Shown here: piece after piece, positions 3,516 to 41,291 of the stretch
Position numbering within the stretch: position 1 is the first letter of the stretch
How the letters are laid out: every line of letters starts with the position of its first letter
Source: Myxococcales bacterium
GTDB taxonomy: Bacteria > Myxococcota_A > Polyangia > Polyangiales > Houyiibacteriaceae
Assembly (NCBI GenBank): GCA_029862185.1
Contig: JAOTXX010000034.1
Span: forward strand, 1 to 41,720
Direction of reading: 5' to 3'
DNA: 41,720 bases
Notes under the pieces: model-generated
Told to the model about the DNA's origin: nothing
The model's database searches: none
What the model saw: the letters and a program-made list of their open reading frames with translations, nothing else
Position numbers and translations under genes: made by a program

Positions 3516-4775
3516 TCAGTCGGATAGCAGAGATTTGGCGCGGGCTGCGGCATCGGTGCGGGGTACCTGCTCCTGGGTCTTGTTCTTCAGATCCTTGAGC
3601 TGGACGACGCCTTCTTCGACCTCGGACTCTCCGAGGATCATCGCGATCCGAGCGTCGATCTTATCGGCTCGGCGCAGCTGGCTCTTGAGCGAGCCGCCGC
3701 GAAGGTCGCTCTCCACGCGAAGCCCGGCGTCTCGAAGCTCGCGCCCGAGCAAGGTTGCCTGGCCACGGACGCTGGCTTGTGCGGCCACGATGAAGACGTC
3801 GACGTGCGATTCGGTGTCCGCTTCGGGCATGGCCATCAGCAAGCGCTCGAGTCCCATCGCGAAGCCGATCGCCGGGGTGTCCGGCCCGTCGAAGCTCCTC
3901 ACCATTTGATCGTATCGGCCCCCTCCGAGCAACGCGTTTTGAGCGCCTAGCCCTTCACCTTTGCCAAGCACTTCGAAGAGCGTCCGGCTGTAGTAGTCGA
4001 GCCCTCTCACGAGGGAGCCGTCTACGCGGTATGGTGTCCCGAGGATGGTCAAGGTCTCTTGAAGCCCATCGAAGTGGGCCCGGTCTTCGTCGGTAAGGTG
4101 CTTCAAGATCGACGGCGCTCCCGCTGCGATCTCAGAGCAGCGCGGCACCTTGCAGTCCAGCACTCGAAGCGGGTTCGCATCCATGCGACGCTGACAGTCC
4201 GGGCAGAGCTCGGCGCGATACGGCGTAAGATATCCGAGCAGCGCGTCGCGATAACTCTCGCGCGTCTCCGGTCCGCCGATCGAGTTGACCAGCACTTCGA
4301 CGTCGCTGATGCCGAGGCTTGCGATGAAACCGACGACCATGTCGATCACTTCGGCATCGACGTAGGGGCCCGGATCGCCGAAGACTTCGATCCCGGCTTG
4401 GTAGAACTGCCGGAAACGCCCCTTGGCAGGCCGCTCGCGCCGATACATCGGGCCGATATAGTACCACTTGGTGACCGGCTCGCGGGCCTGCACGCTGTGC
4501 TGCACGTACGCGCGGACCGACGACGCCGTGCCCTCGGGGCGCAGCGTGAGCGATTTCTCACCCCGGTCGGTGAACGTGTACATCTCTTTTTCCACGATGT
4601 CGGTCGTTTCGCCGATCGAGCGTACGAACAGGGCGGTCGGTTCCAAGATGGGGAAGCGCACTTCCCGGAAACCATAGCCTTCGACTCGCGTGCGGAACGC
4701 GTTCTCGAGGCGGTGCCATTTCGAGATCTCGTCCGGCAGGATGTCTTTCATCCCCTTGACGGCGCGGAGGCTCAT
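3516..4775 (-). CDS. hisS: Histidyl-tRNA synthetase
   Basis: Class II aminoacyl-tRNA synthetase, 419 residues, the usual length. It charges tRNA-His with histidine in the cytoplasm. Visible motifs are the N-terminal VKGMKDILPDE, class II motif 2 in YYIGPMYRRERPAKGRFRQF, the histidine-specific GLDYYSRTLFEV, and the motif 3 region AIGFAMGLERLL. The C-terminal anticodon-binding domain begins near residue 325. It is the last gene of a minus-strand run, 113 bases after the exported AMIN-like gene. That spacer holds a 15-base palindrome (4828-4842) and a small GC hairpin (4853-4865). Confidence 0.97.
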   Translation of the reverse strand: MSLRAVKGMKDILPDEISKWHRLENAFRTRVEGYGFREVRFPILEPTALFVRSIGETTDIVEKEMYTFTDRGEKSLTLRPEGTASSVRAYVQHSVQAREPVTKWYYIGPMYRRERPAKGRFRQFYQAGIEVFGDPGPYVDAEVIDMVVGFIASLGISDVEVLVNSIGGPETRESYRDALLGYLTPYRAELCPDCQRRMDANPLRVLDCKVPRCSEIAAGAPSILKHLTDEDRAHFDGLQETLTILGTPYRVDGSLVRGLDYYSRTLFEVLGKGEGLGAQNALLGGGRYDQMVRSFDGPDTPAIGFAMGLERLLMAMPEADTESHVDVFIVAAQASVRGQATLLGRELRDAGLRVESDLRGGSLKSQLRRADKIDARIAMILGESEVEEGVVQLKDLKNKTQEQVPRTDAAARAKSLLSD

Positions 4776-5436: not shown

Positions 5437-6609
5437 TCAGTGGCCCTTGCCGCCCTTGAGCAAATGGCCGACGCCTTCGCCGAGCCCTTCCAGGGTGAGC
5501 GGGAACATGTCGAACGCCTGTCGGACGTACTCGATGGTGTTTCCGGTCCAGTAGCGCTGCGGCTCCGGGTTGAGCCATATGCTGCGGTGATAGTGCTGGC
5601 TCAGCATCATGAGCCACTGCAGGCCTTCGATGCCCCGGTCGTCGCCGAGGTCGAGTGAGCCGCCCGCCGCAAGAAGCTCGTAGGGCGCCATGAGCGCATC
5701 GCCGACCATGATGAGCTTGTAGTGCGGCCCCGTCTCGTGGAGCAGGTCACGAATCTTGATGGGTGTGTCGAAGCGCTCGGTTTCGTAGACGTGGCCGTAG
5801 ACGCAGTTATGGAAATAATAGGTGCGCAGCTCTTTGAAGTGGGTCGACTTCTTGGCCGCCGAAAATAGCCGAGAGCACAGGTGGGCGAAGGGGTCCATCG
5901 AGCCGCCGACGTCCATCATCAAGATGATGCGGGTGTTGTGGCGCCGGGGAGGGCGGGTGACCACCTCCAGCTCTCCGGCGTTCTGTGCCGTTGCATCGAT
6001 GGTGCCTTCGAGGTCCAGCTCTTCCTCGCCACCTTCGCGCGCAAAGAGACGGAGCTTACGGAGCGCGACCTGCATTTGGCGAACGTCGAGGGTGAGGTCC
6101 TGGCGGTACGGGCGATAGAGACGCGCATCGGCAACCTTCACCGCGCTTCGGCCTCCACCGGTGCCTCCAATTCGGAAGCCTTTGGGCGCGCGGCCGCTGT
6201 GACCAAAGGGTGAGGTGCCTCCGGTGCCGATCCACTTGTTCCCGCCGTCGTGCTGCTCGTCCTGCTCAGCGAGACGCTCTTCGAAGAGCTTGCGAAGCTC
6301 GTCGAGGTCGAGGTTTTCGACGAACTCGCGTTGCTCGTCGGTGAGCTCGGCCATGTTCTCTTTGGCCTGCTGCAGCCAGTCCCAAAGCTCGTCCTTGAGC
6401 TTCTTGGATTCGATCTCGATGCCCTTGAAAAACGAAAGAAAGGCTTCGTCGAATGAATCGAGGTGCGCCTCGCTGTGAATCATCACCGAGCGGGCAACAT
6501 TGTAAAAACCGTCGAGCGAGCTGTCGTGAAGTCCAGCTTTCAGTGCTTGAGCGAGCGCGATGACCTCTTGCGTCCCAACCGGGACGCCGCGGCCGCGAAG
6601 CTCATACAT
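5437..6609 (-). CDS. VWA-domain protein, CoxE family
   Basis: 390 residues, with no signal peptide or membrane segment. The N-terminal half is helical and charged (about 60-120 is coiled-coil-like), then a Gly-rich linker (~127-155), then a von Willebrand A domain. The MIDAS motif is DVGGSMD at 233-239; Gly replaces the first Ser of the usual DxSxS, a variant I associate with CoxE-like VWA proteins. The gene starts 16 bases after the MoxR gene on the same strand. MoxR-VWA pairs act as chaperone machines that mature or remodel partner proteins, for example in metal-cofactor insertion. The client here is unknown. The ATG at 6609 has no strong ribosome-binding site, so coupling to the MoxR gene is likely. 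Confidence 0.88.
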   Translation of the reverse strand: MYELRGRGVPVGTQEVIALAQALKAGLHDSSLDGFYNVARSVMIHSEAHLDSFDEAFLSFFKGIEIESKKLKDELWDWLQQAKENMAELTDEQREFVENLDLDELRKLFEERLAEQDEQHDGGNKWIGTGGTSPFGHSGRAPKGFRIGGTGGGRSAVKVADARLYRPYRQDLTLDVRQMQVALRKLRLFAREGGEEELDLEGTIDATAQNAGELEVVTRPPRRHNTRIILMMDVGGSMDPFAHLCSRLFSAAKKSTHFKELRTYYFHNCVYGHVYETERFDTPIKIRDLLHETGPHYKLIMVGDALMAPYELLAAGGSLDLGDDRGIEGLQWLMMLSQHYHRSIWLNPEPQRYWTGNTIEYVRQAFDMFPLTLEGLGEGVGHLLKGGKGH

Positions 6610-6625
6610 GAAAGGGACTAGGATG

Positions 6626-7468
6626 TTAGCTTCTCCATTGTCGGCCGCCCGACAGCTGATCTGCGAAGGCGACGAGGTCTTGTTCTTTCTTGAGCAAGGC
6701 GCCCAAGAACGGAAGATTCTCTTCGAGCTTCACGCTCTCGATGCCGGCGCGCTGAAGAACCGCGATCCAGTCGACGAGCTCGCTGGTGCTCGGACGCTTG
6801 CGGAGCCGTCGCATGCTCCGGATTTCGTAGAAGGTTTTGAGCGCTTGCTCGGCGAGGCTTTCGTGGACTTTGGGGTGATGGACCTGGACGATCTCAGTCA
6901 TCAGCTCCGGCGTTGGGAAATCGATGAAGTGAAATACGCAGCGTCGAAGGAACGCGTCGGGCAGCTCCTTCTCGGCGTTGCTGGTGATGATCACGATGGG
7001 ACGCTGCGCGGCGACGATGTCCTGCTGTGTTTCGTCGACGTGGAACTGCATCCGATCGAGCTCGTTGAGAAGATCGTTCGGGAACTCCACGTCGGCCTTG
7101 TCGATTTCGTCGATCAGTAGAACCACGCGCTCTTTGGCGTCGAAAGACTCTCCCATCGGGCCGAGCTTGATGTACTGGCTGATGTCGTTGACGTCCTTGT
7201 CTCCAAACCGGGAGTCGTAGAGACGCTGCACCGTGTCGTACACGTAGAGGCCGTCTTGAGCGCGGGTCGTGCTCCGGATGTTCCAACGAATCAGGGGGAG
7301 GCCGAGTGATTGGGAGACCGCGTCGGCGAGAAGGGTCTTGCCGGTGCCCGGCTCGCCTCGAATCAGGAGCGGCCGCTCGAGCACGACAGCGCAGTTCACG
7401 GCAGATTCGAGTGCCTCGCTTGTGAGATAAGTAGAAGTGCCCGAAAAACGTCGAAAATCGTCAGCCAT
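6626..7468 (-). CDS. MoxR-family AAA+ ATPase
   Basis: 280 residues from the ATG at 7468 (a GTG at 7486 would add six). Walker A is GEPGTGKT at 38-45, Walker B is VVLLIDEID at 115-123, sensor 1 is the IITSNAEKELPDAF segment, and the Arg finger region is FLRRCVFHF. Length and motifs fit MoxR ATPases, which hydrolyse ATP in the cytoplasm to remodel partners together with a VWA protein. The partner is the next gene downstream (5437-6609). No promoter was clearly recognised in the 310 bases upstream. Confidence 0.92.
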   Translation of the reverse strand: MADDFRRFSGTSTYLTSEALESAVNCAVVLERPLLIRGEPGTGKTLLADAVSQSLGLPLIRWNIRSTTRAQDGLYVYDTVQRLYDSRFGDKDVNDISQYIKLGPMGESFDAKERVVLLIDEIDKADVEFPNDLLNELDRMQFHVDETQQDIVAAQRPIVIITSNAEKELPDAFLRRCVFHFIDFPTPELMTEIVQVHHPKVHESLAEQALKTFYEIRSMRRLRKRPSTSELVDWIAVLQRAGIESVKLEENLPFLGALLKKEQDLVAFADQLSGGRQWRS

Positions 7469-7549
7469 GGAGCCGAAATGTATCACGCTCCGGCAGATTG
7501 GCGACCGAGAGGGCGGCGGGCAGGCGGATGCTGCAGGGGTGCAGGGACA

Positions 7550-17508: not shown

Positions 17509-20500
17509 ATGAGATCACCGAAGGGTGCGAAAATCCTTCCGAAACGGCTCGCTGGGGGGCAGATGTCTGAGCGGACTTTAGCGAAGTATCTGGGCCTCTT
17601 GCTGGAGGACCCGTACGACACGGAGCTCGTCGACGGCCTGCGCGAGCTCCTGAAGAGCCCGAACCCCGCCAACGACGACCAAGACCCACTTCGGTTGCTC
17701 GAGGCCGCCCGGGGTGGACACGAGCGCCGTGGCGAGTTTTTGGCCGCATCCTGGTTGATGGAGCTCGAGACCGAGTTGGTCGCCGATGATCCCGATTTTC
17801 AGAAAGTGCTGGTCAAAGAGCTCGGCCGCGTGCGCCGCGACGAGCTGATGGACGACCGGGGCGCGCTGGTTGCTTACCAGAAGCTCGGTGGTCTCGAGTC
17901 GGACGACCCCGAGGTCGCCCTTGCGGTCGATCAGATTCAACAGGTCGAAGAGAAGTGGGCCGAAGTCGCGCGCCGCTTCGTCGAGGAGGCGCGCGAAGCG
18001 GTCGACCCGCGCCTCAAGACGTCTCTTCTCACCCGCGCCGCGTCTCTGATGTGGCAGTACGGTGGTGAGTCGACCGTCGAGGAGGCCGACGCGATCTTCG
18101 ACGAAGCCCTGGCCGCCGATCCGTCGCACATGTGCACCGCTCGGCAGTATGCACTGAGTCTTCGCGCGCGCGGCCGTTGGGAAGACGTGGTCTCGGTCTT
18201 CGTTCGCTCGGCCACTGCGGCTCGGACACGCGAAGAAAAGGCCAGCGCATGGTTGCAGGCTGCGCGCGTGTTGCGTCGTCCGCTCCAGGATTCGGAGCGC
18301 GCTGCCGACGCCTATCGCAAGGTTTTGAAGTTCTCACCCACGGACGCCGAGGCGCTCGGTGCGCTGGTCGAGCACCACACCGAGCTCGAGGCCTGGGACG
18401 AGCTCGCCGAGATGTACGAGAGTGCGCTTCGTTCGCGTCAGACGCTCGAGGCCGAGAAGGGCATGCTCCTGCAGCTGGCGATGGTCCATTGGCGATTTCG
18501 CGATGACCCTGAATCAGCAGAGCCATTTTTTGCGCGGCTCCGAAAAATCGATGCGGCGCACCCGGGCATGCTCGACTTCTACCGTGGGCGCATCGGGAAC
18601 GACGATCCGAACGGCCGGTTCCTGACGATCCTGGGCGACGCGCTTCGTACGACGACGGACCCGAAACAACAGCTCGCCTTAGCACGAGAGCTTGGTCATC
18701 GCGCGCAGACGGCGGACCGCCCCGAGCGCGCGCTCGAAGCGTGGAAGCTGGTGGAACGGCTTGCGCCCGGCGACGTGGACGCGCGCGCTGCGCTTCAGCA
18801 GCTGTACCAGCACAGTGGCAAGTGGAACGCTCTGTCCGAGTCGATCCGCGGCGAGGTCGAAGCCCTCTCGCCCGATGCCAAGGAAGAGAAGCTGCGCCTG
18901 CTTCGCGATTTGATCCCGATCTACCGTGACGCGCTCCAGCTCGATTCGATGCTCATCCAGGTCTACGGGGAGATTCTCGCCGTCTCGCCCTACGATTCCG
19001 AGGCGCTGAGCTCGCTGTCGGAGCTCTACGAGGGCGCGGGCCGATGGAACGAGCTCATACTGATTCTCGATCGCCAAGCCGAGGTCGCCTCAGACACCGA
19101 GGTCAAAGTCGCGCTCTACGTACGCATCGCCGGCCTTTGGCTCGAACGCTTTGGGAACCTGAAGCAAGCGACGGAGCCGCTCGAGCGAGTTCTGCGGTTG
19201 CAGCCCACTCACCATGAGGCGATCGCGCAGCTCAAGGACATCTATTCGAAGAAGCGCAACTGGGAAGCCTTGCTCGCGATCCTCGGTCGCGAAGCTGATC
19301 TCGCTGACGATCCGGTCGTGCGTCTCGACAAGAAAATGGAAATGGCGCAGCTGTGCGCGGAGCGACTTCACAAAAACGCCGGCGCGATCACGCTTTGGAA
19401 AGAGATCCTCGACGAAACCCCCGACCCCGCTCAAGCGCTCGATGCGCTCGAGAAGCTTGCCGAGCGAGAGAAGGATTGGGACACGCTTGCCGAGGTCTTG
19501 CGGAGCCGCGCAGAGGCGGCCCCGACCGAGCCCGAACAGGTCGAGCAACTCCATCGGCTCGGAGTTCTCTACATGGAACGCCTGGACCGTCCGGCCGAGG
19601 CCGTCGCGGTTTGGGTGCGCTTGCTCGAGCTCGATCCGGACAACAGCCGTGTCCGGCGCATGCTCAAAGACGCGTATCTGAGGCTGAACGATTGGGAGTC
19701 CTTGGAGGCGCTCCACGCGGAGGCCGACGACTGGGCGGGCTTTGCCGAGCTGCTTGGGCATACGGCGGAGCAAGCCGAGGACCCGGAGTCGATCGTGCAA
19801 TTGAGCCTGCGGGCAGCCGCGCTCTACGGCGAGCGCGTTGGAGATCTCCATCGCGCCGCGCGCTACTACGAACGCGCGCTCGCAACCGACGCTACCAACA
19901 TCCAGGCCGCCAAAGGGCTATTGCCGATCTACGAAAAGGATCAAAAGTGGCCGGACTACGCCAGGAGCCTCGAGGTCGTCGTAGCGGGCTCTGACAAAGA
20001 CGAGGACCTCGACGTTCGGATCGAACGACTGGTTGCCCTACGCAGCGTTCACTTGAATCGGCTCCGTGATCCAGAGGCCTCGCTCGGTTGGGCTACTCGA
20101 GCGTACCTTCTGTCCCCGGCCGATCCGGCGATCGTCGCCGGGCTCGAGGAATCGGCCGAGGCGTCTGGCGCCTACGCCGACCTCGTCGCCCTGTTTCGTG
20201 ATCGGTTGGAAACCGCATCGGTTTCGGATGCCGAACGCCTGGACCTACAGCGACGCATCGCTTCGATCGCGGGCGAGCGGCTCGGCGAGTCGCTGGAGTC
20301 GATCCGGCAGCTCGAAGCCATTCTCGAGGTCGTCCCCAACGACGCCGAGGCGATCGCAGTCCTCGATCGCTTGTACCGCGGGGAGCGCCGATTTGCCGAC
20401 CTGCGCACCCTCTATGAACGCCGCCTCGAAAACGTAGCCGACCCGGCCGAGGAGTGGGTGCTTCTGAATGAAGTCGCGCAGGTCGAGGAGGAGCAGCTCG

Positions 20501-23500
20501 GGGACCTTCCGGCGGCCGCCGAGCGCCATTGGAAGATCTTGGCGAAGAATCCGCACGACGTCGACGCACTACGGGCGGTCGAACGTCTTTCGCAGCAACT
20601 CAAGCAGTGGGACCGATTGGACTCCGCGCTTGCCCGGCGGCTGCAGTCGAAGGTTGCAGATGAGGACCGGCTTTCGGTCTATCTGCAACTAGCGGATCTG
20701 CGACGAATCTATCTCGAAGATTCGACCGGTGCGCTCGAGTGCTACCGTAACGCCCTGGCGTTGGACGGCCGAAACGAAGTCGCGATCGGCGGCCTCGAAG
20801 CGCTCTCGGCACAAGGAGGGCCCCTCGGCATCGAGGCGATCGATCTCCTGGAGCCGGCGTATGCGAAGCGAGGACATTTCGCCAAGCTTGCGGCGCTTCT
20901 GCGCGCACGGCTCGAAAAGACGGAAGACGCCGACGAGCAGCGCGCGCTGAAATTGCGCCTGGCCGATCTATCCTCCTCCGAGCTCGATGATGCGACGGGC
21001 GCCTACGAGGCGCTCGAATCGGTATTCCTCGACAACCCGCAGGATTTGGATCTGCTCGACCGTTTGACGGGAGTCGCGGAGTTATCGAACCAGCAAGATT
21101 CCCTCGCCAAGGCCCTGGTGCTCGTGTTGGATGGAGGCGACGTTGGAGGCGAGGTGGAGCTGACCCTCTGCCGGCGCACAGCGGAGCTCCACGACGTCGC
21201 CCTGGGCACTCCCGAAGAGGCCGCGCGCTTCCATCGGCGTGTCTTGGAGCTCGAGCCTGACGATGGAGCGGCATTCGCAGCCTTGAAGCAGGTCTACACC
21301 AAGCACGAGCACTGGGACGATCTCCGCGCGCTCTACCAAGGACGCATCGAGGCCACCACCGATGCAGGCGCCAAGCTCGATTTGCTTCTTCAGCTCTGCT
21401 TCCTGTTCGAGGAGATCCTCGACGAACCCAAGCATGCGATCTCGACTTACGAGCAGGCGCTCGAGCTCGACCCAACCCACACGCCGTCGCGAAGAGCGTT
21501 GCAAAGGCTTTACGGCCGACTCCAACGTTGGCCGGAGATGGCCGAGCTTCTTCGGAGAGACCTCGACGAGGCGAGTGGACAGGAAGCGATCGATCTCGCG
21601 TACGAGCTCGGCACGATCTACGAGACCCGACTCCACCGCGCGGTCGACGCCGTGGACCACTTCGAGCTCGTTCTGGAGTCGAGCCCAACCCATCTCCGCG
21701 CCCAGGAGGCGCTCGAGCGGCTGATGAGCAATCGCGATGAGCGGCAGCGCGTTGCCTCCATCCTTCAGCCCATCTTCGAATCACAGGGCGCCTGGGGCGA
21801 GCTCTCCAAGGTCTTGGAGGTGCAGCTGGAGGATCTCAGCGATCCGAGCTCCCGGGCGGCGCATCTCGTGCGGATTGGCGAGCTGAGCGAAACCAAGCTC
21901 CGAGACGACGAGCTGGCCTTCGATGCCTACGCGCGGGCTGTTCGCGAGGATGTTGCAGATGGCGTCGCACGCTCGGATCTAGCGCGGCTCGCCGCGAAGC
22001 TGGCACGTCATCGTCAGCGCGCCGAGCTGCTCGAAGGGGGCCTTGCCACGGTCGGTGACGACTTCGTCAAGACAGAGCTGCTCCTCGAGCTGGCCGAGCT
22101 CTGGGATGTTTCCGAGCCCGAGCCAGAGGAGGCGGAGCGAATCTATCAGCAGCTCATCCGATTGGAGCGGGACAACCCGGAGATCGTTCTCAAGGCCTCG
22201 CGCGCCCTCGAGCGCATTCACGTCGGGTCCGGGGATCACGCTGCGCTCGCGCGGGATCTTCGACGACAGCTCCAGTTCGAAGAAGATGGGGCACGTCGCG
22301 ACGAGCTCTTTCCGAGGTTGGCGGAGCTGCTCGAGACGACCTTGCACGACGCAGACGCCGCGATCGAGGTTCACCAGGAGCGTCTCGAAAACGACCCCGC
22401 GCAGGCCGATGCGCTCTTGGCCCTCGAGCGCCTCTACGAATCGCAGGGGCGCTGGGAGTTGCTTGTCGAGGTGCTCGAGCGCCGCGCCGAGCTCAGCGAC
22501 GAGGAGCAGGAGCAGCTGAGCCTGGCGAGGCGCGTCGCGGAGGTTCACGAACAGCGGCTCGGCAGTGTAGAGAACGCGATTTTGGCACATCGCGATCTGA
22601 TTTTGCGCTTTGGCTCCGACGAACCAAGCCTGGCCGCGCTGACGCGGCTCTACCGACAGACCGAGCGTTGGCGAGAGCTCCTCGAAATCACCGAAATGCG
22701 GGCCGCGGCCGCGGACGACCCGGAACAACGGGTGGGCTTTCGATTCGATGCTGCCGAGCTCATGCGCACGCAGACCGGCGAGGGCGAGCGCGCATTCGAG
22801 CTCTATCGAGAGCTTCTCGATTCCGTGCCGGGGCATCCGCCCAGTGTGGCCGCGCTCGAGGAGTTGGCGGCGGGTTCGGATGCCCATCTGCGGGTGGCTG
22901 CGGCCAACCGGTTGCTCGACCAGTATGCGACCGATGGTCGACCTGGCGAGCAGGTTCGAATGCTCGAAATCATGGCGGCCGCGGACGACCCGAGCGAACG
23001 GGTTCGTGCCTTGCTGCGTGCTGCCGAGATCACCGAAGTCGACATCAACGATGTTGACGCCGCATTCGAGCTCACGGGACGCGCGCTCCGCGAAGGGGTC
23101 GACCTCGATGATTTCGAACGGGTTTTGGGAGACTACGAGCGCCATGCCGAGTCGACCGGGCGTTTCTCGCAGCTGATGGCCACGCTCGGAACAATCGCGC
23201 CCGAGTTACTCGACGCCGACTTGCGAACGCAGGTGCGCATGCGGGCCGCCAGCATTGCCCAGGAGCGGCTCTCCGACGCGGAATTCGCCCGCGCGCAGTA
23301 CCAATGCGTCCTCGAAGAACAGCCGGACCACCGGGCGGCTCTCGATGCGCTCTTGACCCTGGTCGAGGATGCGGGCGCGACCCGCGAGCTGGTCGAGCTA
23401 CTGCGGCGCAAGGGCGAGCTCTGCGAGGACCGGGAAGAGCGCGCGGCGCTCCTCGTGCGGCAGGCACACCTCTACCAGAGCGAGCTCGATGATCCGGAGT

Positions 23501-26500
23501 CGGCGATCGATGCGCTGGACCGGGCGCTCGGCGAGAGCGATCATCCTTTGGCCTACGAAGGCCTCGAGCGCCTCTATCGTCGAACCCAGCGATGGGAGGA
23601 TTTGGCCACGCTCTACGAGCGAGAAATCGACCAGCGCATCGGTGATCCGGCCGCCGTCCGATACGAGCTCGGCGAGCTCTGCATGAAGCGCCTCGGGGAG
23701 CCCTTGCGCGCCTTGGACCAGTTCCGCGAGGCCCTGAGCCAGAACCCGGACCACGAGCCGACGGTCCGCGCACTCGAAGCGCTGGTCGAGCAGTCCGAGC
23801 ACCGCGGACCGGCTGCCGAAATGCTCGAGCCTTTGTACCTGCGCAGGATGGACTGGGCCAAGGTCACCGAGATTCTCGAAGTCCGCCTCGATGCGGAAGT
23901 CGATCCAAGTCAGCGGCTCGAGCTCTTGCGACACCTCGGTGACGTACAAGAGTCACACCTCGAAGACCTCGATGGTGCGCTCGAGACCTATGGCCGGCTG
24001 TTTGCCGAAGACCCGCACGACCCGCACAGCCTCGAGACCCTCACTCGATTGGCGCGTTCGCTCGGCCGCTGGGATCGACTCGCTGCGATTCTCGATGCGA
24101 CGCTTCGTGCCGTCGAGGTGGATGACGGCGACACTGCGGCGATCGCGCTGACGACCGCGAAGCTCTACGACCAGCGCCTCGAGGAGCTCACCCGGGCAGG
24201 CTATTTCTACCAGCGCGCACTCACCTATGATCCGAGCAACCAGGAAGCCGGCAAGGCGTTGGCTTCGGTCTACGCGCGGAGCGGGAGATGGGAACCGCTG
24301 CTCGACCTGGATCGCGAGCGCGAAAGCTTCGCAGAGAGCGACGACGACCGGGTCGCCATCCTGCACGAAATCGCGCGCACCGAGGTCGACGAGCTCGAGG
24401 CACCGCAGAACGGCATCCTCACGTACAGACGCATCCTCGAAATCGATCCAGCCAATGGCGAGGCGGTGACCCGGCTCGACGAGCTGCTCGAAGGCGCAGC
24501 CCAATGGGCAGAGCTCGCTGCCCACATCGAGTTCCAGATCGGAAATGCGACGGACGCTCGGCGCGGGCTCGAGCTTCGGCAGCGTCTGGGTGCGCTCACG
24601 GAGACCAAGCTCGACAACCCGGCGGGGGCGCTCGACATCTTCGAGGATGTCCTGGCCGACCGAGCCGACTATGCGCCGGCAATCGAGGCGGTGTCGCGCT
24701 TCGTCGAGGATGAGGAGCACGGGCCGAGGGCCGTTCAGATTCTCGAGCCGATCCATCGGCAGAGCGGCGACTGGCAGGCGCTGGTCAGCCTTCTCGAGGC
24801 GAAGGCACGGCAGGTGGAGGATCACTTCGAGCAGGCCGAAACCTGGCGGGAGGTCGGGCGCCTGCACGAGGGGCCAGGCCGCGATGCGGAGAAGGCGTTC
24901 GACGCCTGGGGCAAGGCACTGGTTGCCGAGCCTGCCGACGAGGCCACACGTGCGGAGGTCGACCGGTTGGCGGAGGCGCTCGACCGCTGGGAGGCCTACA
25001 TCGAAACCTGCGAGCAGGCGGCGGTCGCTGCGGAAGAGCCCTCGCTTCGCGGTTCGTTTCTGAGAAGCGTCGCCGAGACCCAGGACCGGGAGCTGGGGGA
25101 TCCTCGGGCTTCGATCATGACCTACCGGCGAATCCTCGAGGCCGATCCCGAGGCGGAGCAAACCCTCGACGACTTGGAAGGTCTTCAAGTGATGGTCGGA
25201 GATTGGGAAGGCCTTTCATGGGTTTACGAGCAGAAGCTCGAACGCTCTCACGAGCCGGACCCCCGCGCAGAGCTCCTTTGCCGACTCGGCGGGCTCTGGG
25301 AGGAGCAGCTGTCGAACACGGAGCGCGCCGTCGAATACTACCAACGCGCGGCGGATGAGAAGCCCGATGACGGAGCGGCGTACGAGGCGCTCGACCGGCT
25401 CTTTGCATCGGCCAACGACTCCGAGCGGCTGGCGGACGTGCTCGAGCGGCGCGTGCAGCTCGAAGATGAGCCCGAGGTCCAAGTCGAGGTGGGTATGCGA
25501 CTCGCCGAGCTCTACGAGGCTCAACTCGGCCGTCCCGATGCGGCCTGTGATGCCCTGCGAACCGTTGCGGAGGCCGACCCCGAGCATCGCGGCGCCTTGC
25601 AGGGCTTGAGCCGGCTCTACGAGCGGCAAGGGCAGTGGCCAGAGCTGGTCGACGTGCTCCAGCGCCGGACCGATGCCGCCGTGCATGAATCCGAGCGGGT
25701 CGAGCTCACCCATCAGCTTGGCAACATCATGGAGCGCGAGCTCGACGACGAGCTCAGTGCCATCGCCGTGTACGGCCAGATTCTCCGAATCGACGCAGGG
25801 CATGAGCCCTCGGTTCAAGCTCTGCTTCGAATCACCAAGCTCGCCGACTACCGCGAAGACGCCGCTTCCATGCTCGAGCCCTACTTGCGAACGCAGGAAC
25901 GCTGGAACGACCTGGCCATGCTGCTTCGGCTCCGTGCCGATGCCATGACCGACCCGCAGGACAAGGCCGAGCAGTTGGTTGCCCTGGCCGAGGTGCACGA
26001 GCATGGGCGCAAGGACCCGAGCTCGGCGCTCGACGCGCTGCTGCAGTCGATTGGAGAGCGCCCAGAGGATGAGGAGATTCTCGAACGGGCCGAGACCTTG
26101 GCTGCGGCGCTTCTGCGCTGGTCGGACCTGGTCGAAGTTCTGTTCGCGGAAGCCAGCGCGAGCCTCGATTCGGGGCGGGGCGCAGCCCTCTATGGGCGCG
26201 TGGCGCGGATTTGCGAAGACGAGCTCGAGGATCTGAGCAAGGCGATCGACGCGCACGAGCGAGCGCTTTCGTTGCTGGGCGACGATTCGTCAACCCTCGA
26301 GACGCTCGACCGGCTGCTTCAGCAGACGCAGCAATGGGACCGGGTGCACGAGGTCATCTCGCGCCGATTGGAATTGCAGGGCGCCGACCGGCCGACGCTC
26401 CTATTGCGGCAAGGGAGGCTTCGCGCTGATCACCTTGGCGACTACGAAGGAGCGCTCGGCGCGTACGAGAAAGCGATGGAGCAGGAGCCGGGGCGCGACG

Positions 26501-28746
26501 ACACGCTCGCCGCGGTGCGGAACCTGGCCGCAAAACCACAGGTCGCTGCGAGCGCGCTCGACCTACTCGAAGCGTACTACCGGGGCGCCGGCAACCTCGA
26601 AGAGGTGGTTCGGCTCTACGAGCAGCGCGTCGAGCTCGCGGCCACCGATTCGGATCGCGTCGCGCTCCTCACCGAGGCCGCCGCGATTTGGGAAAACGAC
26701 ATCGGGCGCCCCGAGCAGGCCTTGAAGGCCCTTCGCGACGCGGTGCGAACGGACCCGCGCGACCTGACCCTCATCGATTCCCTCGAGCGCCTCGCCGAGG
26801 TATCGGAACATTGGTCGGAGCTCGATGGGCTGGTCGAAGAGATCGCCGCGCACGGCGACCTCGATCGACGCGAGATGTACGCGCTGCGTCTCCGATCGGC
26901 TGGCTGGTACCGCGACCGCTTGTCCGACCCGCGCTCTGCCGAGCGAGCGCTCACCGAAGCGCTCGAGCTCGACTCCGAGCCACTCGAAGCACACTCTCAA
27001 CGCGTCGACTTGATTCGCTCCCAGGAACGAACCGGGGACTTGGTGAACGCGCTTCGCGCCTGGGCGGAAGTCGATCCAAGCAGCGATCGGCGCATCGGGC
27101 TCCTGCGCGAAGCGGCCGAGCTGGCGCGCGCGGAGCTTGCGGAGCCAGAGCTTGCAGCGGATTGCTACCAGGAGCTGATCGCCATCGAGCCGGACGACCT
27201 CGATGCGCTGCGGGCTCTGTCCGAGATTCGACGGGATCAATCGCGATGGAACGAGCTCGTTGGGCTGCTCGAGAGGCAAATGGAAATCGCGGCTGGCGAG
27301 GAACGTGCCCAGGTGGCGCGGGCAACCGGGCAAGTGTACCGGGATCAGCTCGACGACCCGCGGGCCGCCATTCGCGCCTACGAGGTCGCTCTTGATATCG
27401 ACGAGAACGACGCGAGCACCATGGACGCGCTCGAAGTGCTCTACCGCGACAACGACCGGCTCGAAGCGCTTCGCACCTTACTCGAACGCCGGGCGAATTC
27501 CGCCAGCGGCGAAGACCGCATCGCCATGCAGCTTCGCCTCGCGCAGCTCTACGAGCGCTCGTTCCGCGACGAGGCCGCTACGATCGACATGTTTGGGCAG
27601 GTTCTGCTGGCCGATCCGAACAACGAAGTTGCCAACGCCAACCTCGACAGGCTCTACCAGGCGACGGGCGCATGGGATGACCTCATCGCGCTGCTTCTTT
27701 CCAGGGTCGCTCACGCGTCGGACGAGGCGCAGCGCGACTTGCTCGCGCGCATCGCGGACTTGCACCTCGACAAGCGCCATGACGAGGACGCCGCGATCGT
27801 GATCTACGAGCGCATCAACACCGAGCTCGGCGCGGACGAGGACTCCCTTCGCGCGCTGGCTGGGCTGTACGAACGCAAAGGGAGCTGGACCCGAGTCGCC
27901 GACGCCCTCGAACGGCTCGTCGGTCGCCTGGACGGGGACGCCGCCATCGAGCTTTCGCATCGCGTTGCGGACGTCTGGGAGCAGCAGGTCGGCGATGTTG
28001 CACAGGCGGGACGGGCGCTTCGCGGGACCTATGAACGCTTCCCCGAGGACCGGGCGACCCGTGAAAGGCTCAAGGCCTACTACGAGACTGGCGGTGACTA
28101 TCCGGCGCTGGTCGAGGTCATGGACGCGGAGCTTCGAGCAGCGAGCTCCGACGCCGGCCGCCTGACGCTTCTGCGGGCGATTTCCGATGTCTACCGCGAT
28201 AAGCTCGATTCTCCCGGCGAAGCGGCGAGCTATCTCGAGCGCGCGGTCGAGCTCGACGGCTCCGATCGGGGCGCATTGGTTCCGCTTTGCGATCTGTACA
28301 TCGCTGCGGGCCGCCAACAGGACGCGGTGCCCGTCCTGCGCCAGATCATCGAGAGCTACGGCCGGCAGCGAAGCAAGGAGCTCGCCACACATCAGCACCG
28401 GCTCGGCCAAGCGCTGGCGGCGATGGGCGATGCAGAGGGTGCGCTCGCTGCGTACGATGCGGCCTTCAAGATCGATCTCACCAACGTCGCGATTCTCCGG
28501 GACCTCGGGAAGCTCACCCATTCGGCCGGCGACCTCGACCGTGCGCAGAAGAGCTTCCGCGCGCTGCTGCTCCAAAAGCTGGAACCGGACTCGGGCATCC
28601 AGAAAGCGGATGTCTATTTCTACCTGGGCGACATTGCCGCCAAGACCGACGACAAGCGCAAAGCGATCACGATGCTCGAGAGGGCCCTTGCCGAAGATGC
28701 CAGCCACGCGCAGGCTGCAGAGCTCCTCGCAGAGCTGAAGGGTTGA
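17509..28746 (+). CDS. Giant TPR-type helical repeat protein, 3745 residues
   Basis: One uninterrupted frame of 11.2 kb. No signal peptide or membrane helix is visible, so it is predicted cytoplasmic. After ~80 residues the whole chain is built of a degenerate unit of about 76 residues, roughly 48 copies. Each unit has the pattern L..LY...GRW..L...L.RR.E, then a second helix pair rich in RLAEL.E..L.D...A...Y...LE.DP. Each unit probably forms two TPR/HAT-like hairpins stacked into a superhelix. The last ~120 residues are more canonical TPRs. Six variant units carry an LEP-type motif at prolines 1116, 1421, 2108, 2414 and 2791 and Ala 3022. Composition is very acidic and Arg-rich. The ATG at 17509 follows TGGGGG; a second ATG at 17563 also has a purine-rich site. 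TPR solenoids scaffold complexes; giant TPR proteins are known in myxobacterial gliding (AgmK/GltI, from memory), but no motility genes adjoin. Confidence 0.92.
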   Translation: MRSPKGAKILPKRLAGGQMSERTLAKYLGLLLEDPYDTELVDGLRELLKSPNPANDDQDPLRLLEAARGGHERRGEFLAASWLMELETELVADDPDFQKVLVKELGRVRRDELMDDRGALVAYQKLGGLESDDPEVALAVDQIQQVEEKWAEVARRFVEEAREAVDPRLKTSLLTRAASLMWQYGGESTVEEADAIFDEALAADPSHMCTARQYALSLRARGRWEDVVSVFVRSATAARTREEKASAWLQAARVLRRPLQDSERAADAYRKVLKFSPTDAEALGALVEHHTELEAWDELAEMYESALRSRQTLEAEKGMLLQLAMVHWRFRDDPESAEPFFARLRKIDAAHPGMLDFYRGRIGNDDPNGRFLTILGDALRTTTDPKQQLALARELGHRAQTADRPERALEAWKLVERLAPGDVDARAALQQLYQHSGKWNALSESIRGEVEALSPDAKEEKLRLLRDLIPIYRDALQLDSMLIQVYGEILAVSPYDSEALSSLSELYEGAGRWNELILILDRQAEVASDTEVKVALYVRIAGLWLERFGNLKQATEPLERVLRLQPTHHEAIAQLKDIYSKKRNWEALLAILGREADLADDPVVRLDKKMEMAQLCAERLHKNAGAITLWKEILDETPDPAQALDALEKLAEREKDWDTLAEVLRSRAEAAPTEPEQVEQLHRLGVLYMERLDRPAEAVAVWVRLLELDPDNSRVRRMLKDAYLRLNDWESLEALHAEADDWAGFAELLGHTAEQAEDPESIVQLSLRAAALYGERVGDLHRAARYYERALATDATNIQAAKGLLPIYEKDQKWPDYARSLEVVVAGSDKDEDLDVRIERLVALRSVHLNRLRDPEASLGWATRAYLLSPADPAIVAGLEESAEASGAYADLVALFRDRLETASVSDAERLDLQRRIASIAGERLGESLESIRQLEAILEVVPNDAEAIAVLDRLYRGERRFADLRTLYERRLENVADPAEEWVLLNEVAQVEEEQLGDLPAAAERHWKILAKNPHDVDALRAVERLSQQLKQWDRLDSALARRLQSKVADEDRLSVYLQLADLRRIYLEDSTGALECYRNALALDGRNEVAIGGLEALSAQGGPLGIEAIDLLEPAYAKRGHFAKLAALLRARLEKTEDADEQRALKLRLADLSSSELDDATGAYEALESVFLDNPQDLDLLDRLTGVAELSNQQDSLAKALVLVLDGGDVGGEVELTLCRRTAELHDVALGTPEEAARFHRRVLELEPDDGAAFAALKQVYTKHEHWDDLRALYQGRIEATTDAGAKLDLLLQLCFLFEEILDEPKHAISTYEQALELDPTHTPSRRALQRLYGRLQRWPEMAELLRRDLDEASGQEAIDLAYELGTIYETRLHRAVDAVDHFELVLESSPTHLRAQEALERLMSNRDERQRVASILQPIFESQGAWGELSKVLEVQLEDLSDPSSRAAHLVRIGELSETKLRDDELAFDAYARAVREDVADGVARSDLARLAAKLARHRQRAELLEGGLATVGDDFVKTELLLELAELWDVSEPEPEEAERIYQQLIRLERDNPEIVLKASRALERIHVGSGDHAALARDLRRQLQFEEDGARRDELFPRLAELLETTLHDADAAIEVHQERLENDPAQADALLALERLYESQGRWELLVEVLERRAELSDEEQEQLSLARRVAEVHEQRLGSVENAILAHRDLILRFGSDEPSLAALTRLYRQTERWRELLEITEMRAAAADDPEQRVGFRFDAAELMRTQTGEGERAFELYRELLDSVPGHPPSVAALEELAAGSDAHLRVAAANRLLDQYATDGRPGEQVRMLEIMAAADDPSERVRALLRAAEITEVDINDVDAAFELTGRALREGVDLDDFERVLGDYERHAESTGRFSQLMATLGTIAPELLDADLRTQVRMRAASIAQERLSDAEFARAQYQCVLEEQPDHRAALDALLTLVEDAGATRELVELLRRKGELCEDREERAALLVRQAHLYQSELDDPESAIDALDRALGESDHPLAYEGLERLYRRTQRWEDLATLYEREIDQRIGDPAAVRYELGELCMKRLGEPLRALDQFREALSQNPDHEPTVRALEALVEQSEHRGPAAEMLEPLYLRRMDWAKVTEILEVRLDAEVDPSQRLELLRHLGDVQESHLEDLDGALETYGRLFAEDPHDPHSLETLTRLARSLGRWDRLAAILDATLRAVEVDDGDTAAIALTTAKLYDQRLEELTRAGYFYQRALTYDPSNQEAGKALASVYARSGRWEPLLDLDRERESFAESDDDRVAILHEIARTEVDELEAPQNGILTYRRILEIDPANGEAVTRLDELLEGAAQWAELAAHIEFQIGNATDARRGLELRQRLGALTETKLDNPAGALDIFEDVLADRADYAPAIEAVSRFVEDEEHGPRAVQILEPIHRQSGDWQALVSLLEAKARQVEDHFEQAETWREVGRLHEGPGRDAEKAFDAWGKALVAEPADEATRAEVDRLAEALDRWEAYIETCEQAAVAAEEPSLRGSFLRSVAETQDRELGDPRASIMTYRRILEADPEAEQTLDDLEGLQVMVGDWEGLSWVYEQKLERSHEPDPRAELLCRLGGLWEEQLSNTERAVEYYQRAADEKPDDGAAYEALDRLFASANDSERLADVLERRVQLEDEPEVQVEVGMRLAELYEAQLGRPDAACDALRTVAEADPEHRGALQGLSRLYERQGQWPELVDVLQRRTDAAVHESERVELTHQLGNIMERELDDELSAIAVYGQILRIDAGHEPSVQALLRITKLADYREDAASMLEPYLRTQERWNDLAMLLRLRADAMTDPQDKAEQLVALAEVHEHGRKDPSSALDALLQSIGERPEDEEILERAETLAAALLRWSDLVEVLFAEASASLDSGRGAALYGRVARICEDELEDLSKAIDAHERALSLLGDDSSTLETLDRLLQQTQQWDRVHEVISRRLELQGADRPTLLLRQGRLRADHLGDYEGALGAYEKAMEQEPGRDDTLAAVRNLAAKPQVAASALDLLEAYYRGAGNLEEVVRLYEQRVELAATDSDRVALLTEAAAIWENDIGRPEQALKALRDAVRTDPRDLTLIDSLERLAEVSEHWSELDGLVEEIAAHGDLDRREMYALRLRSAGWYRDRLSDPRSAERALTEALELDSEPLEAHSQRVDLIRSQERTGDLVNALRAWAEVDPSSDRRIGLLREAAELARAELAEPELAADCYQELIAIEPDDLDALRALSEIRRDQSRWNELVGLLERQMEIAAGEERAQVARATGQVYRDQLDDPRAAIRAYEVALDIDENDASTMDALEVLYRDNDRLEALRTLLERRANSASGEDRIAMQLRLAQLYERSFRDEAATIDMFGQVLLADPNNEVANANLDRLYQATGAWDDLIALLLSRVAHASDEAQRDLLARIADLHLDKRHDEDAAIVIYERINTELGADEDSLRALAGLYERKGSWTRVADALERLVGRLDGDAAIELSHRVADVWEQQVGDVAQAGRALRGTYERFPEDRATRERLKAYYETGGDYPALVEVMDAELRAASSDAGRLTLLRAISDVYRDKLDSPGEAASYLERAVELDGSDRGALVPLCDLYIAAGRQQDAVPVLRQIIESYGRQRSKELATHQHRLGQALAAMGDAEGALAAYDAAFKIDLTNVAILRDLGKLTHSAGDLDRAQKSFRALLLQKLEPDSGIQKADVYFYLGDIAAKTDDKRKAITMLERALAEDASHAQAAELLAELKG

Positions 28747-28749
28747 ACC

Positions 28750-29628
28750 ATGGCCATCGGAAAGGTTGCAATCGATGGCGAGGTCGTCGATAGCGACGAG
28801 GCACGCGTGTCGGTCTTCGACCGAGGTTTCCTCTATGGGGACAGCGTGTTCGAGGTGTATCGGACCTACGCTGGCATCGCCTTTGCCGAAACCGAGCATT
28901 TGGAACGGCTCGCTCGTTCGGCGGCCCGCCTCATGATTCCAATGCCGGTATCGATCGAGACGCTCTCGTCGGAGGTGCGCGCGACCCTGGACGCTGCAGG
29001 CGAGGGCGACTGGTATGTTCGCGTCATCGTGACGCGGGGGACCGGCCCGCTCACCTATGATCCGACCACCGCCAGGGCTCCGCTTCGCGTCATCATCGCA
29101 GCCCCCGTATCGGTGCCGCCCGCCGAGCACTACGAGCGCGGCATTGCGGTCGCGCTGCTCGAGGCGTCACGGCCGACGGATGACGCGCGGGCGTCGGGCG
29201 CCAAGGCGTCGAACTATCTGGCAAACCTGCTCGCGGTCCACGAGGCCAAGCAAAAGGGGGCGCAGGAGGCGCTCATGCTTGGACGCGACGGCCAGATACT
29301 CGAAGGCGCATCGAGCAACCTCTTCATCGTGAAGGACGGCACGGTGCGCACCCCCGAGCCGCAGCCGGGAATCCTGGTCGGCATCACTCGGGCGACGGTC
29401 ATGGCCGCGGCCGCCGATGAAGGCATCGAGGTCATCGAGGGTGAAGTGCGCCCCGACGATCTCTACGGCGCCGACGAAGCCTTCCTCACGAGCAGCATCC
29501 GAGAGGTGATGCCAGTTGTCGCCGCCGAAGGGCGAACGATCGGGGCTGGGGTGCCAGGTCCGGTCACAAAACGCCTCCACGCGGGCTATTTACGAGCCGT
29601 GGCCCTTGCCACCGGGGCGGGGGTTTGA
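28750..29628 (+). CDS. Class IV PLP aminotransferase (BCAT / D-amino-acid transaminase type)
   Basis: 292 residues, starting 3 bases after the giant repeat gene. It belongs to the fold-type IV PLP family that includes branched-chain aminotransferase, D-alanine transaminase and aminodeoxychorismate lyase. The PLP lysine is K152 in GAKASNYLANLL; the ILEGASSNLF motif carries the conserved Glu; LTSSIREVMPV is the C-terminal family signature. The FDRGFLYGDSVFEVYRTY region shapes the substrate pocket but does not decide between the three activities. No other amino-acid biosynthesis gene adjoins. Confidence 0.9.
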   Translation: MAIGKVAIDGEVVDSDEARVSVFDRGFLYGDSVFEVYRTYAGIAFAETEHLERLARSAARLMIPMPVSIETLSSEVRATLDAAGEGDWYVRVIVTRGTGPLTYDPTTARAPLRVIIAAPVSVPPAEHYERGIAVALLEASRPTDDARASGAKASNYLANLLAVHEAKQKGAQEALMLGRDGQILEGASSNLFIVKDGTVRTPEPQPGILVGITRATVMAAAADEGIEVIEGEVRPDDLYGADEAFLTSSIREVMPVVAAEGRTIGAGVPGPVTKRLHAGYLRAVALATGAGV

Positions 29629-29841: not shown

Positions 29842-30930
29842 CTAGTGCAGGGTGTGCGATTCGCCGTCGTGCTCGACGATCGGGATGCCTGTATCCGCAG
29901 CCATGTCCGTTGGCGCGAGCGGAGCAGGGGGCGGCTCGGTCGTGAGGCGCAGCGCTTCGAGCTCTTCGCGATGGGCCATTTGTCGGAGCTTGGTGTGGTG
30001 GTAGTGGCGCCGACGTCGGTACGCGAACACGACGAGGATCGCGGCCGCGACCCAAATCGTGGAGCCGGCAAAAAGGGCAGGGAGGATTCGATACCTCGTC
30101 CGGAGGCTTTCCCGCCACTGGCGCTCGAGGCCGATTCGCGTCCAGCCGTAGGCGACCGCGAGCGCCGTATCGAACGTTTCGCCTTCGCGGAGAGACTGAA
30201 TCAGTCGATGGAAGCGGCGCTGGTCGTTGTCGGTGCGGCGCAGGAAACCGACCACGTCCGCGCTCTGGGCATAGGCGACGTTCACTTCATGCGGGCGATT
30301 GGGAAAGCGATCGTCGATCTCGGAGAGTCGCAGCATGGAGCGCTGGGCGGCCGCCCGTAGCAGCGACTCCATGCGTGGGAGCAAGCGCACCTCGGATTGG
30401 TGAATCGCGACGCCTTCGTTGAACCAGCGCGGAACCGAATTGCCGAGAACCGCACGGTAGAGCGCGACGTGCGAGAGCTCGTGGACGAGGACCACCTCGA
30501 GATCCGGGGGCTGCCAGGTCTCCGGGGCAGACATCGTCAAGAGGATCACGCCCCACTGCGAGTAGGCGACACCGGTCGCGTAGTCGGGCGGCGGATAGCC
30601 AAAGGGCGCCATCGCCTTCATCTCGCGAGGGTTTCGCGCGACGCGGATGATCAGCTCGTCATCGATGGGGACGCCGAAGTTGTCGACCAACTCTTCCCAG
30701 TGCTCCTCGACGCCATTTATCAGCGCATCGACGCGAGCTCGCTCGGACTGGGGGAAGGTCCAGGTCACCGGTCCGATGCGCTCGGTTTCGTAGCCATCGA
30801 GCGGCGAGGGCAGCGAGAGCTTGGGCGCTTCTTGGGGCGCAAGCTGAGCCGCGGCGCCGACCGACACCGACGTGATGCCGATTGCGCAAAGGAGTGCCGC
30901 GAACGAAGCTAGAGGGGGTCTACTCTTCAC
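29842..30930 (-). CDS. Membrane-anchored gluzincin metallopeptidase (peptidase MA-like)
   Basis: 362 residues from a GTG at 30930. The signal peptide is residues ~1-28 (AALLCAIGITSVSVGAAAQ). The active site is HELSH (H150, E151, H154), with the third zinc ligand E172 in PRWFNEGVA, the gluzincin arrangement of the peptidase MA family. One transmembrane helix lies near residue 285-307 (FAGSTIWVAAAILVVFAY), followed by an RRRRHYHH stop-transfer and a ~50-residue cytoplasmic tail. The catalytic domain should face the periplasm. The start overlaps the end of the upstream gene by 11 bases, so the two are probably coupled. Confidence 0.88.
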   Translation of the reverse strand: MKSRPPLASFAALLCAIGITSVSVGAAAQLAPQEAPKLSLPSPLDGYETERIGPVTWTFPQSERARVDALINGVEEHWEELVDNFGVPIDDELIIRVARNPREMKAMAPFGYPPPDYATGVAYSQWGVILLTMSAPETWQPPDLEVVLVHELSHVALYRAVLGNSVPRWFNEGVAIHQSEVRLLPRMESLLRAAAQRSMLRLSEIDDRFPNRPHEVNVAYAQSADVVGFLRRTDNDQRRFHRLIQSLREGETFDTALAVAYGWTRIGLERQWRESLRTRYRILPALFAGSTIWVAAAILVVFAYRRRRHYHHTKLRQMAHREELEALRLTTEPPPAPLAPTDMAADTGIPIVEHDGESHTLH

Positions 30931-31702
30931 CGGGTCTAAATCTTAGCAGCGGCGGTCCCGGCTCGTTAGTGCGACGTCGATCAATGATGAGGTAGGTTAC
31001 ACCTCCGGCGAGGAGCGCCCCGGCGACCAAATACGGCCAGGCCTTTTTGATCCTGCGTTTCGCCCTGGATTCGTCCGCAGGTTGCTTGGGCTCGTTCACT
31101 TTTACAGGAGCGCTTGCTGGAGGCGGCGGAGGCGGTTCGGACCAACGTAGCTGCGCCTGTGCTGCGCGGCTCTCGATGAACTTCAGCCGTTGCGCTGCGC
31201 TGCTGTCGTCGAACGCGAGCGTGCCTTCGTAGAACTGCGCCGCACTCACGTCGAAGACCTCCAACTTGATAGCGCCTTCGCGATGCACGACCAGCAGGGC
31301 ATCGGCACCGGCAATGATCCCGATGCGCTTGTACGACGCGAGGTCTTTGCGCGGGTCGAAGCCGAGGCCGCGACGGAGGGCGCGAAGGCTTTCAAGCCCA
31401 TCGTCGTTGGTCGCGGGCTCGCCGCGCATGGCGGCGCGGAGCGCGGGGTCGGTCGGGGCGCGCAGGCCCGAGAGGGTAGCTTCTCTTTCGATGAAGGCAG
31501 CGGTCTCCCGGAGCGTCTCGTCGGGATCACCAGCAACGACGGTAGCGATTTTGGGGGAGGGTTTGTCAGCGTCAGCGTCAGTGCCCGTGTCAGTGCCCGC
31601 GCCGGCCTCGGAATCGGCCTCGGCCTCGGCCTCGGAATCGGCCCCGGCCACCGCCGCCGACCCGCTCGCCAGCAACACCGCCACCATGATTACGCACCGC
31701 AT
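30920..31702 (-). CDS. Single-pass envelope protein with acidic linker, unknown function
   Basis: 260 residues from the ATG at 31702 (a TTG at 31720 would add six). The signal peptide is RCVIMVAVLLASGSAAVAGA. A low-complexity acidic linker follows (residues ~23-48, Glu/Asp/Ala/Thr/Gly), then a globular region of about 140 residues, a PPPPPP hinge, a basic segment, one transmembrane helix near 222-240 (YLVAGALLAGGVTYLIIDRR) and a short tail. The DNA of the linker is repetitive. I do not recognise the globular part (GLGFDPRKDLASYKRIGIIA, ADALLVV). It lies upstream of and overlaps the metallopeptidase gene, with the same one-anchor topology, so they may act together. Confidence 0.75.
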   Translation of the reverse strand: MRCVIMVAVLLASGSAAVAGADSEAEAEADSEAGAGTDTGTDADADKPSPKIATVVAGDPDETLRETAAFIEREATLSGLRAPTDPALRAAMRGEPATNDDGLESLRALRRGLGFDPRKDLASYKRIGIIAGADALLVVHREGAIKLEVFDVSAAQFYEGTLAFDDSSAAQRLKFIESRAAQAQLRWSEPPPPPPASAPVKVNEPKQPADESRAKRRIKKAWPYLVAGALLAGGVTYLIIDRRRTNEPGPPLLRFRPGEE

Positions 31703-31758
31703 CGGCGGAACGATAGGCAACGCGGCGCATCCGCGCTAGCGTGCGGCGCGTTTTTGTG

Positions 31759-41099: not shown

Positions 41100-41170
41100 T
41101 CGGGGATCGTCTAACGGCAGGACTCCAGTTTCTGGTACTGGCTATCTAGGTTCGAATCCTAGTCCCCGAG
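41100..41170 (+). tRNA. tRNA-Gln (anticodon CUG)
   Basis: Acceptor arms TCGGGGA (41100-41106) and TCCCCGA (41163-41169) pair perfectly. The anticodon stem is CCAGT/ACTGG with loop TTCTGGT, giving anticodon CTG, which reads CAG (Gln). The T arm is CTAGG-TTCGAAT-CCTAG. The discriminator is G and CCA is not encoded; the next bases are CTA. Confidence 0.95.
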
Positions 41171-41216
41171 CTAGTTAGCTGTTAAAGGAACGCAGCCGAC
41201 GCGCAGATTAGCTTTC

Positions 41217-41291
41217 GGCCCCATCGTCTAGTGGTTAGGACATCGGCCTCTCACGCCGGTAACACGAGTTCGAATCTCGTTGGGGTCACCA
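41217..41291 (+). tRNA. tRNA-Glu (anticodon CUC)
   Basis: Acceptor arms GGCCCCA (41217-41223) and TGGGGTC (41281-41287) pair with one G-U. The anticodon stem is TCGGC/GCCGG with loop CTCTCAC, giving anticodon CTC, which reads GAG (Glu). The T arm is ACGAG-TTCGAAT-CTCGT. The 3' ACCA is encoded (41288-41291). It lies 46 bases after tRNA-Gln and is probably co-transcribed with it. Confidence 0.96.

Follow-up and report, generated by a model that had tools for sequence, protein, structure and literature searches.

We describe a giant protein of 3745 amino acids, encoded by a myxococcal genome (referred to as the source genome), that is built from 48 tandem double-TPR units, a number that neither increased nor decreased in 53 orthologues. 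Judged by sequence, this protein (family A) is a paralogue, arising from an early duplication, of a second giant TPR protein (family B) that is GltI by its position behind gltG. Family A was found only in genomes that also encode family B and GltG, and we consider it somewhat more probable than its competitors that it is a soluble cytoplasmic scaffold, probably serving a GltI-type envelope machine or a sister machine, a reading in which location, partners and process are all inferred.

Results

A single giant reading frame

The gene lies on the forward strand at positions 17509–28746 of the window (i.e. the whole stretch of DNA analysed, 41 720 nucleotides) as one open reading frame with no internal stops and an even codon-position GC throughout. 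The preliminary description had read this stretch as a single giant frame, naming frameshifts or several separate genes as what would speak against it; both were looked for and are ruled out, as the 53 named orthologues are single frames that align end to end. Many family A orthologues start at residue 19 (MSER..., nucleotide 17563) and a G-rich stretch lies immediately 5′ of this start codon, so that the product is probably 3727 amino acids long, starting at nucleotide 17563. In GC-rich relatives, codon bias has produced antisense open frames opposite the giant gene, 4944 codons long at L044:2376-17210 and 4593 at L050:767-14548, a trap for gene callers.

Forty-eight double-TPR units

Self-similarity of the protein was highest at a lag of 72 amino acids (z = 18 against shuffles), with further peaks at lags of 89, 216, 233, 305 and 377. 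A unit HMM, applied iteratively, gave 54 matches, 48 of them near-complete units with starts from residue 104 to residue 3639 (17818–28593, forward strand), an array also seen in the AlphaFold2 helices. Unit spacing had a median of 72 and a mean of 75.2 amino acids, the latter being a mixture of 72-amino-acid units and a few of 87–91 amino acids with an extra helix. These values agree with the about 48 units and the mean period near 76 residues that had been proposed beforehand, and the search for an internal repeat of 70–80 residues, on which that proposal depended, returned the 72-amino-acid period. Each unit had been suspected to be a double hairpin and does consist of two TPRs, with four helices per 72 amino acids in the models described below.

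The protein belongs to the TPR superfamily, with Pfam matches to TPR_7 (E = 1.1e-33), TPR_8 (E = 2.5e-27) and others above cut-offs, and with the tandem 34–38-residue helix pairs of this superfamily visible in the models. Membership in named TPR families is excluded, as scores fell under the NCBIfam equivalog cut-offs for PrsT (XrtA/PEP-CTERM; 220.6 bits vs. 312.2), MamA (172.3 vs. 200), PilW, Tgl (31.5 vs. 225) and other named families; no NCBIfam GltI model matched the family A protein. The units of one family A protein are 24% identical among themselves, which, together with their frozen number (see below), rules out a recent repeat expansion.

LEPxY inserts and a four-unit super-repeat

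Seven units (14, 18, 23, 27, 31, 36 and 39) are 87–91 amino acids long and carry an insert of 17 amino acids each, with an extra helix and the signature R..A..LEPxY. All lie on the forward strand: unit 14 (88 amino acids, 20683–20946) has its LEPxY insert helix at residue 1114; unit 18 (90 amino acids, 21595–21864) its LEPxY insert at residue 1419, visible in the model as a helix at 121–135 after a short one at 105–114; unit 23 (87 amino acids, 22750–23010) an insert near residue 1806; unit 27 (87 amino acids, 23662–23922) and unit 31 (91 amino acids, 24574–24846) LEPxY inserts at residues 2106 and 2412, respectively; unit 36 (90 amino acids, 25705–25974) a LEP insert at residue 2789; and unit 39 (89 amino acids, 26398–26664) an insert at residue 3020. 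The resulting spacings are 305, 387, 300, 306, 377 and 231 amino acids, most being about 305, and all seven inserts are kept in every one of the 53 orthologue rows.

After subtraction of the common TPR signal, units 14, 18, 23, 27 and 31 were mutually alike (r 0.26–0.49), units 36 and 39 paired with one another, and the units directly following inserts also resembled each other. Because both the insert units and their followers are alike, the middle of family A is, on sequence grounds, a series of modules of four double units (305 amino acids), sometimes of three or five. Eight TPRs make up about one turn of the canonical TPR superhelix, and the spacing of ~305 amino acids combined with this turn length suggests one LEPxY insert per superhelical turn.

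Predicted fold

Structure prediction, proposed beforehand as a check, was carried out with AlphaFold2 on residues 19–760 and 1292–2447 using 40 orthologues (mean pLDDT 90.1 and 89.5, respectively). Both models contain helices only, four per 72 residues, and we read the whole protein as an alpha-solenoid of 48 double TPRs and about 200 helices. The closest PDB folds were CTR9, SKI3, TTC21B of IFT-A, OGT and LGN, all scaffolds or hubs of large complexes, with poor superhelix alignments (TM 0.1–0.3). As had been stated from the sequence, neither a signal peptide nor a membrane helix nor a catalytic domain was detected with Pfam, NCBIfam and hydropathy, the highest 19-residue Kyte–Doolittle mean being 1.29 (0.47 at the N-terminus), i.e. 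no hydrophobic segment.

Frozen length and uneven conservation

The orthologue set comprised 53 full-length proteins on named contigs, aligned end to end at 27–88% identity, from Myxococcales bacterium SG8_38 and relatives, Sandaracinus, Kofleriaceae, Lujinxingia and others. Over this whole range of identity no unit was gained or lost, and indels of at least 30 amino acids from residue 400 to residue 3740 were limited to three insertions of 31–41 amino acids and one frame cut at the end. A second, overlapping set of 28 genomes, drawn in another way, gave the same picture of fixed length with three deviations, i.e. a 145-amino-acid insertion at one locus, insertions of 45–84 amino acids near residue 370 at another, and deletions of up to 88 amino acids in one diverged row. 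In an orthologue of 46% identity, 43 of the 48 units had their counterpart of equal number as best match, and in the most distant orthologues 20–29 of the 48 still did so, compared with one expected by chance; this implies that the units are not homogenised and that each has its own identity.

Conservation was uneven, peaking at residues 289–360, 433–580 and 3600–3745. The most conserved N-terminal part (residues 289–600; 18373–19308, forward strand) contains the motifs LLQIAMVHWR, KWNAL and IYRD in both profile and alignment and proved diagnostic for family A in profile searches of genomes, while the C-terminal peak falls in a module of canonical TPRs (residues 3560–3744; 28186–28740, forward strand; FRALLLQKL...KADVYFYLG). 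These peaks are the best candidates for partner-binding sites. Plasmid-borne homologues of family A were searched for and none was found.

A paralogue in the position of GltI

The source genome encodes further giant TPR proteins, including a family B giant that is split by contig ends across contigs C49 and C57. The gene order around it is GltC, GltD-like, GltE-like, GltG, a TPR protein of 289 amino acids and giant B, with matches to GltG (E = 1.4e-115), GltC (2.3e-87) and GltE (3.1e-32) that all stay under the strict NCBI equivalog cut-offs, and with the GltD-like protein (1205 amino acids), which lacks a dedicated model, named from its size and place in the order. In 40 of 61 places across the phylum, GltG and the C-terminal domain of B were encoded on the same strand no more than 20 kb apart, the remaining places being on separate contigs or in distant families. 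In Myxococcus xanthus, gltI (agmK, MXAN_4863) comes after gltG and gltH and encodes a TPR protein of 4132 amino acids without a signal peptide (PMC3169522). According to the same paper, a set of glt genes that includes gltI is in some cases present in more than one copy. A review portrays GltI as a large scaffold by which, together with GltG, the Agl motor is linked to MreB (PMC13104615). The place behind gltG and the glt order in the source genome make family B the positional GltI/AgmK, an assignment drawn from gene position.

With the units of A and B all in phase, ungapped diagonals between the two proteins carried no information. Compared unit by unit after removal of the common TPR signal, the two giants showed co-linear blocks (units 7–18 of A with 1–12 of B, 31–40 with 12–21 and 47–48 with 35–36). 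In a tree of the shared region A and B stood apart (support 100/99), each side comprising Polyangia and Bradymonadia, so that the duplication predates these two classes. On this sequence evidence A and B are paralogues from an early duplication, and common ancestry of A with GltI/AgmK is found by way of family B. The two form distinct clades present side by side in one genome, so A itself is not the positional GltI.

Family A ends in canonical TPRs and lacks the C-terminal non-TPR domain of B (~250 residues; DWGLHxKK...PAPxVYLxxD...ELAFxIxKxLxxMRPEHYL). This domain has no match in Pfam and looks like a new one. It also occurs in smaller TPR proteins of the same genomes (frames of about 500–2400 amino acids), in many genomes, e.g. 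at L064:5882-6700 and L069:3640-4398, both on the reverse strand. Other giant TPR proteins (3316–3861 amino acids) are encoded in the f21 genomes (L168, L169, L170 and L171), where the B-type domain was not found. Two of these giants share with family A only the C-terminal third, and the f21 proteins were not upheld as clear orthologues.

Distribution across Myxococcota

The comparison of presence and absence with gliding genes, also proposed beforehand, covered 141 genomes of the phylum. GltG was detected in 112, B in 71 and A in 60 of these with the N-terminal profile, rising to 63 when a C-terminal profile search added one diverged copy (G050) and two fragments. Thus A was present in 60–63 of the 71 genomes with B and in none of the 70 without it, and no genome of the 141 encoded A without B or without GltG. 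This nesting of A within B within GltG is strongly clade-bound, the counts being raw and uncorrected for phylogeny. About eight genomes encode B and lack A (G003, G034, G059, G060, G065, G092, G130 and G139), six of which have a completeness of 90% or more and low contamination, implying that A is dispensable for the Glt/GltI core. Both giants were absent from 41 genomes with GltG; when families of this kind were searched for a Myxococcus-type GltI, only TPR proteins of about 1560–2250 amino acids were found.

Gene neighbourhood

Directly downstream of A lies a class IV (branched-chain type) aminotransferase gene (28750–29628, forward strand; Pfam Aminotran_4, E = 8e-60). At 23 loci in the order it follows A, almost always in the same orientation, and is a conserved neighbour within the order and not beyond, so that we do not favour this enzyme as a functional partner. 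Upstream of A, close relatives encode a divergently oriented HMG-CoA lyase and an aminopeptidase, and outside the order the neighbours differ (e.g. phosphatidylserine decarboxylase or a methyltransferase). Elsewhere in the window, an AAA ATPase (MoxR-like) is followed by a VWA/CoxE-like protein (5440–7486, reverse strand), and tRNA-Gln(CTG) and tRNA-Glu(CTC) are in tandem (41100–41291, forward strand). A Peptidase_MA_2 protein and a 266-amino-acid protein without any family are encoded at 29845–31720 (reverse strand), and both genes are conserved on the downstream side of the giant gene in close relatives.

No GltC, GltD, GltE or GltG gene occurred in the flanks of A at any of the 53 orthologous loci, and A was near GltG in none of 40 places. 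A location beside gltG/gltJ is therefore a feature of B (40 of 61 places) and not of A. The preliminary description, which mentioned giant TPR proteins of the myxobacterial gliding machinery, had noted that no gliding gene adjoins, and this holds for the window and all 53 loci. It did miss the ancestry, A being a paralogue of the giant encoded behind gltG.

Discussion

A soluble solenoid of ~200 helices with no enzymatic part points to a scaffold, and the restriction of A to genomes with a GltI paralogue and GltG makes service to a GltI-type machine the most likely role. In the model that we moderately favour, A would be a scaffold of fixed length whose concave surface and two conserved ends (residues about 289–600 and 3560–3745) could hold several partners at set distances. 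The seven LEPxY helices, at intervals that mostly span four double units or eight TPRs, would mark equivalent positions along the rod, which may lie on the cytoplasmic side of a GltI-type envelope-spanning machine or of a sister machine derived from duplicated genes. Against a role in the gliding machine, A is never near GltG, no Glt gene is found in its flanks and its stable neighbour within the order is a metabolic aminotransferase. Further points against it are the B-containing genomes without A, the 41 GltG-containing genomes without either giant, the clade-bound and uncorrected co-distribution, and the absence from A of the C-terminal domain of B.

The best alternative, which we rate as possible and clearly second to a GltI-type role, is a giant scaffold serving some non-gliding process of these bacteria (e.g. 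cell polarity, predation or lipid/branched-chain metabolism), the GltI-like distribution reflecting shared ancestry in the same classes. Its absence from the glt cluster, the existence of B-containing genomes that lack A, the aminotransferase present beside it throughout the order, the HMG-CoA lyase divergently upstream and, in other families, the adjoining phosphatidylserine decarboxylase and methyltransferase genes all fit such a process. These neighbours vary between families, however, with no constant partner among them, and A, a true paralogue of a glt-linked giant, was not detected where B or GltG is absent. We regard it as unlikely that A is a molecular ruler whose LEPxY inserts are regular docking sites and whose fixed number of superhelical turns defines a distance within a large assembly. 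The unit number stayed the same in all 53 orthologues, even at 27% identity, and all seven inserts are kept with their spacings, but a fixed number would also be expected if every unit served a binding function of its own, or if divergence to 24% identity had left the units unable to recombine; moreover, the spacing of the inserts is not strictly regular and the turn length is taken from the canonical TPR superhelix. Equally doubtful is the more specific idea that, in Polyangia and Bradymonadia, a second GltI-type giant with a turn number locked by selection serves a motor-driven envelope machine as its cytoplasmic ruler or ladder, each turn offering one LEPxY docking position. We give almost no credence to an expanding, functionally loose TPR array that is a by-product of large GC-rich genomes: tandem repeats do often expand, and codon bias does produce very long antisense frames at this locus in relatives, yet the 53-orthologue alignment contradicts it, with unit count and order frozen across classes, conservation peaks at residues 289–600 and 3600–3745, and the gene kept in 60–63 of 71 genomes with B.

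Giant GltI-like TPR proteins are already known. We found no paper on a second GltI-like giant in the open-access literature searched, in which the division into two ancient groups of orthologues, the fixed architecture of 48 units, the four-unit super-repeat, the separate locus and the nested distribution are apparently undescribed. Few parts of the best-known bacterial gliding motor have been studied as little as GltI, one reason being its size as a single giant of more than 4000 residues, and an ancient pair of giants of near-constant length across classes offers a natural comparison of the features that A and B share and those private to each, with their co-occurrence as a testable rule. 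That a tandem-repeat protein has kept all its units without adding any suggests that the geometry of the scaffold is itself under selection.

Among known systems, family A most resembles GltI/AgmK, likewise a giant TPR protein of about 4000 amino acids without a signal peptide, whose positional representative, family B, shares unit order with A; it differs in lying outside the glt cluster and adjoining an aminotransferase gene, and, compared with the short B of the order, in having six extra N-terminal units and a different count of middle modules. GltD (AgmU), GltE (AglT) and GltC of the Glt system are TPR proteins too and are present in the source genome, but they are much smaller there (426–1205 amino acids) and are exported in M. 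xanthus (PMC3169522), whereas giant A has no signal sequence. A TPR protein of ~1690–2000 amino acids found across the phylum has the same kind of double-TPR unit as A but half its length and another locus, and this size class also occurs in every GltG-containing genome examined that has neither A nor B; its representative in the source genome, the third large TPR protein there (1690 amino acids, G000:C104:2385-7457, L063), adjoins dnaG and rpoD. The best fold matches, SKI3/TTC37, CTR9, TTC21B (IFT139) and OGT, likewise form extended TPR superhelices by which large complexes are held, although these eukaryotic scaffolds have several-fold fewer repeats, their sequence kinship with family A is only at the level of the TPR, and family A is without a catalytic domain.
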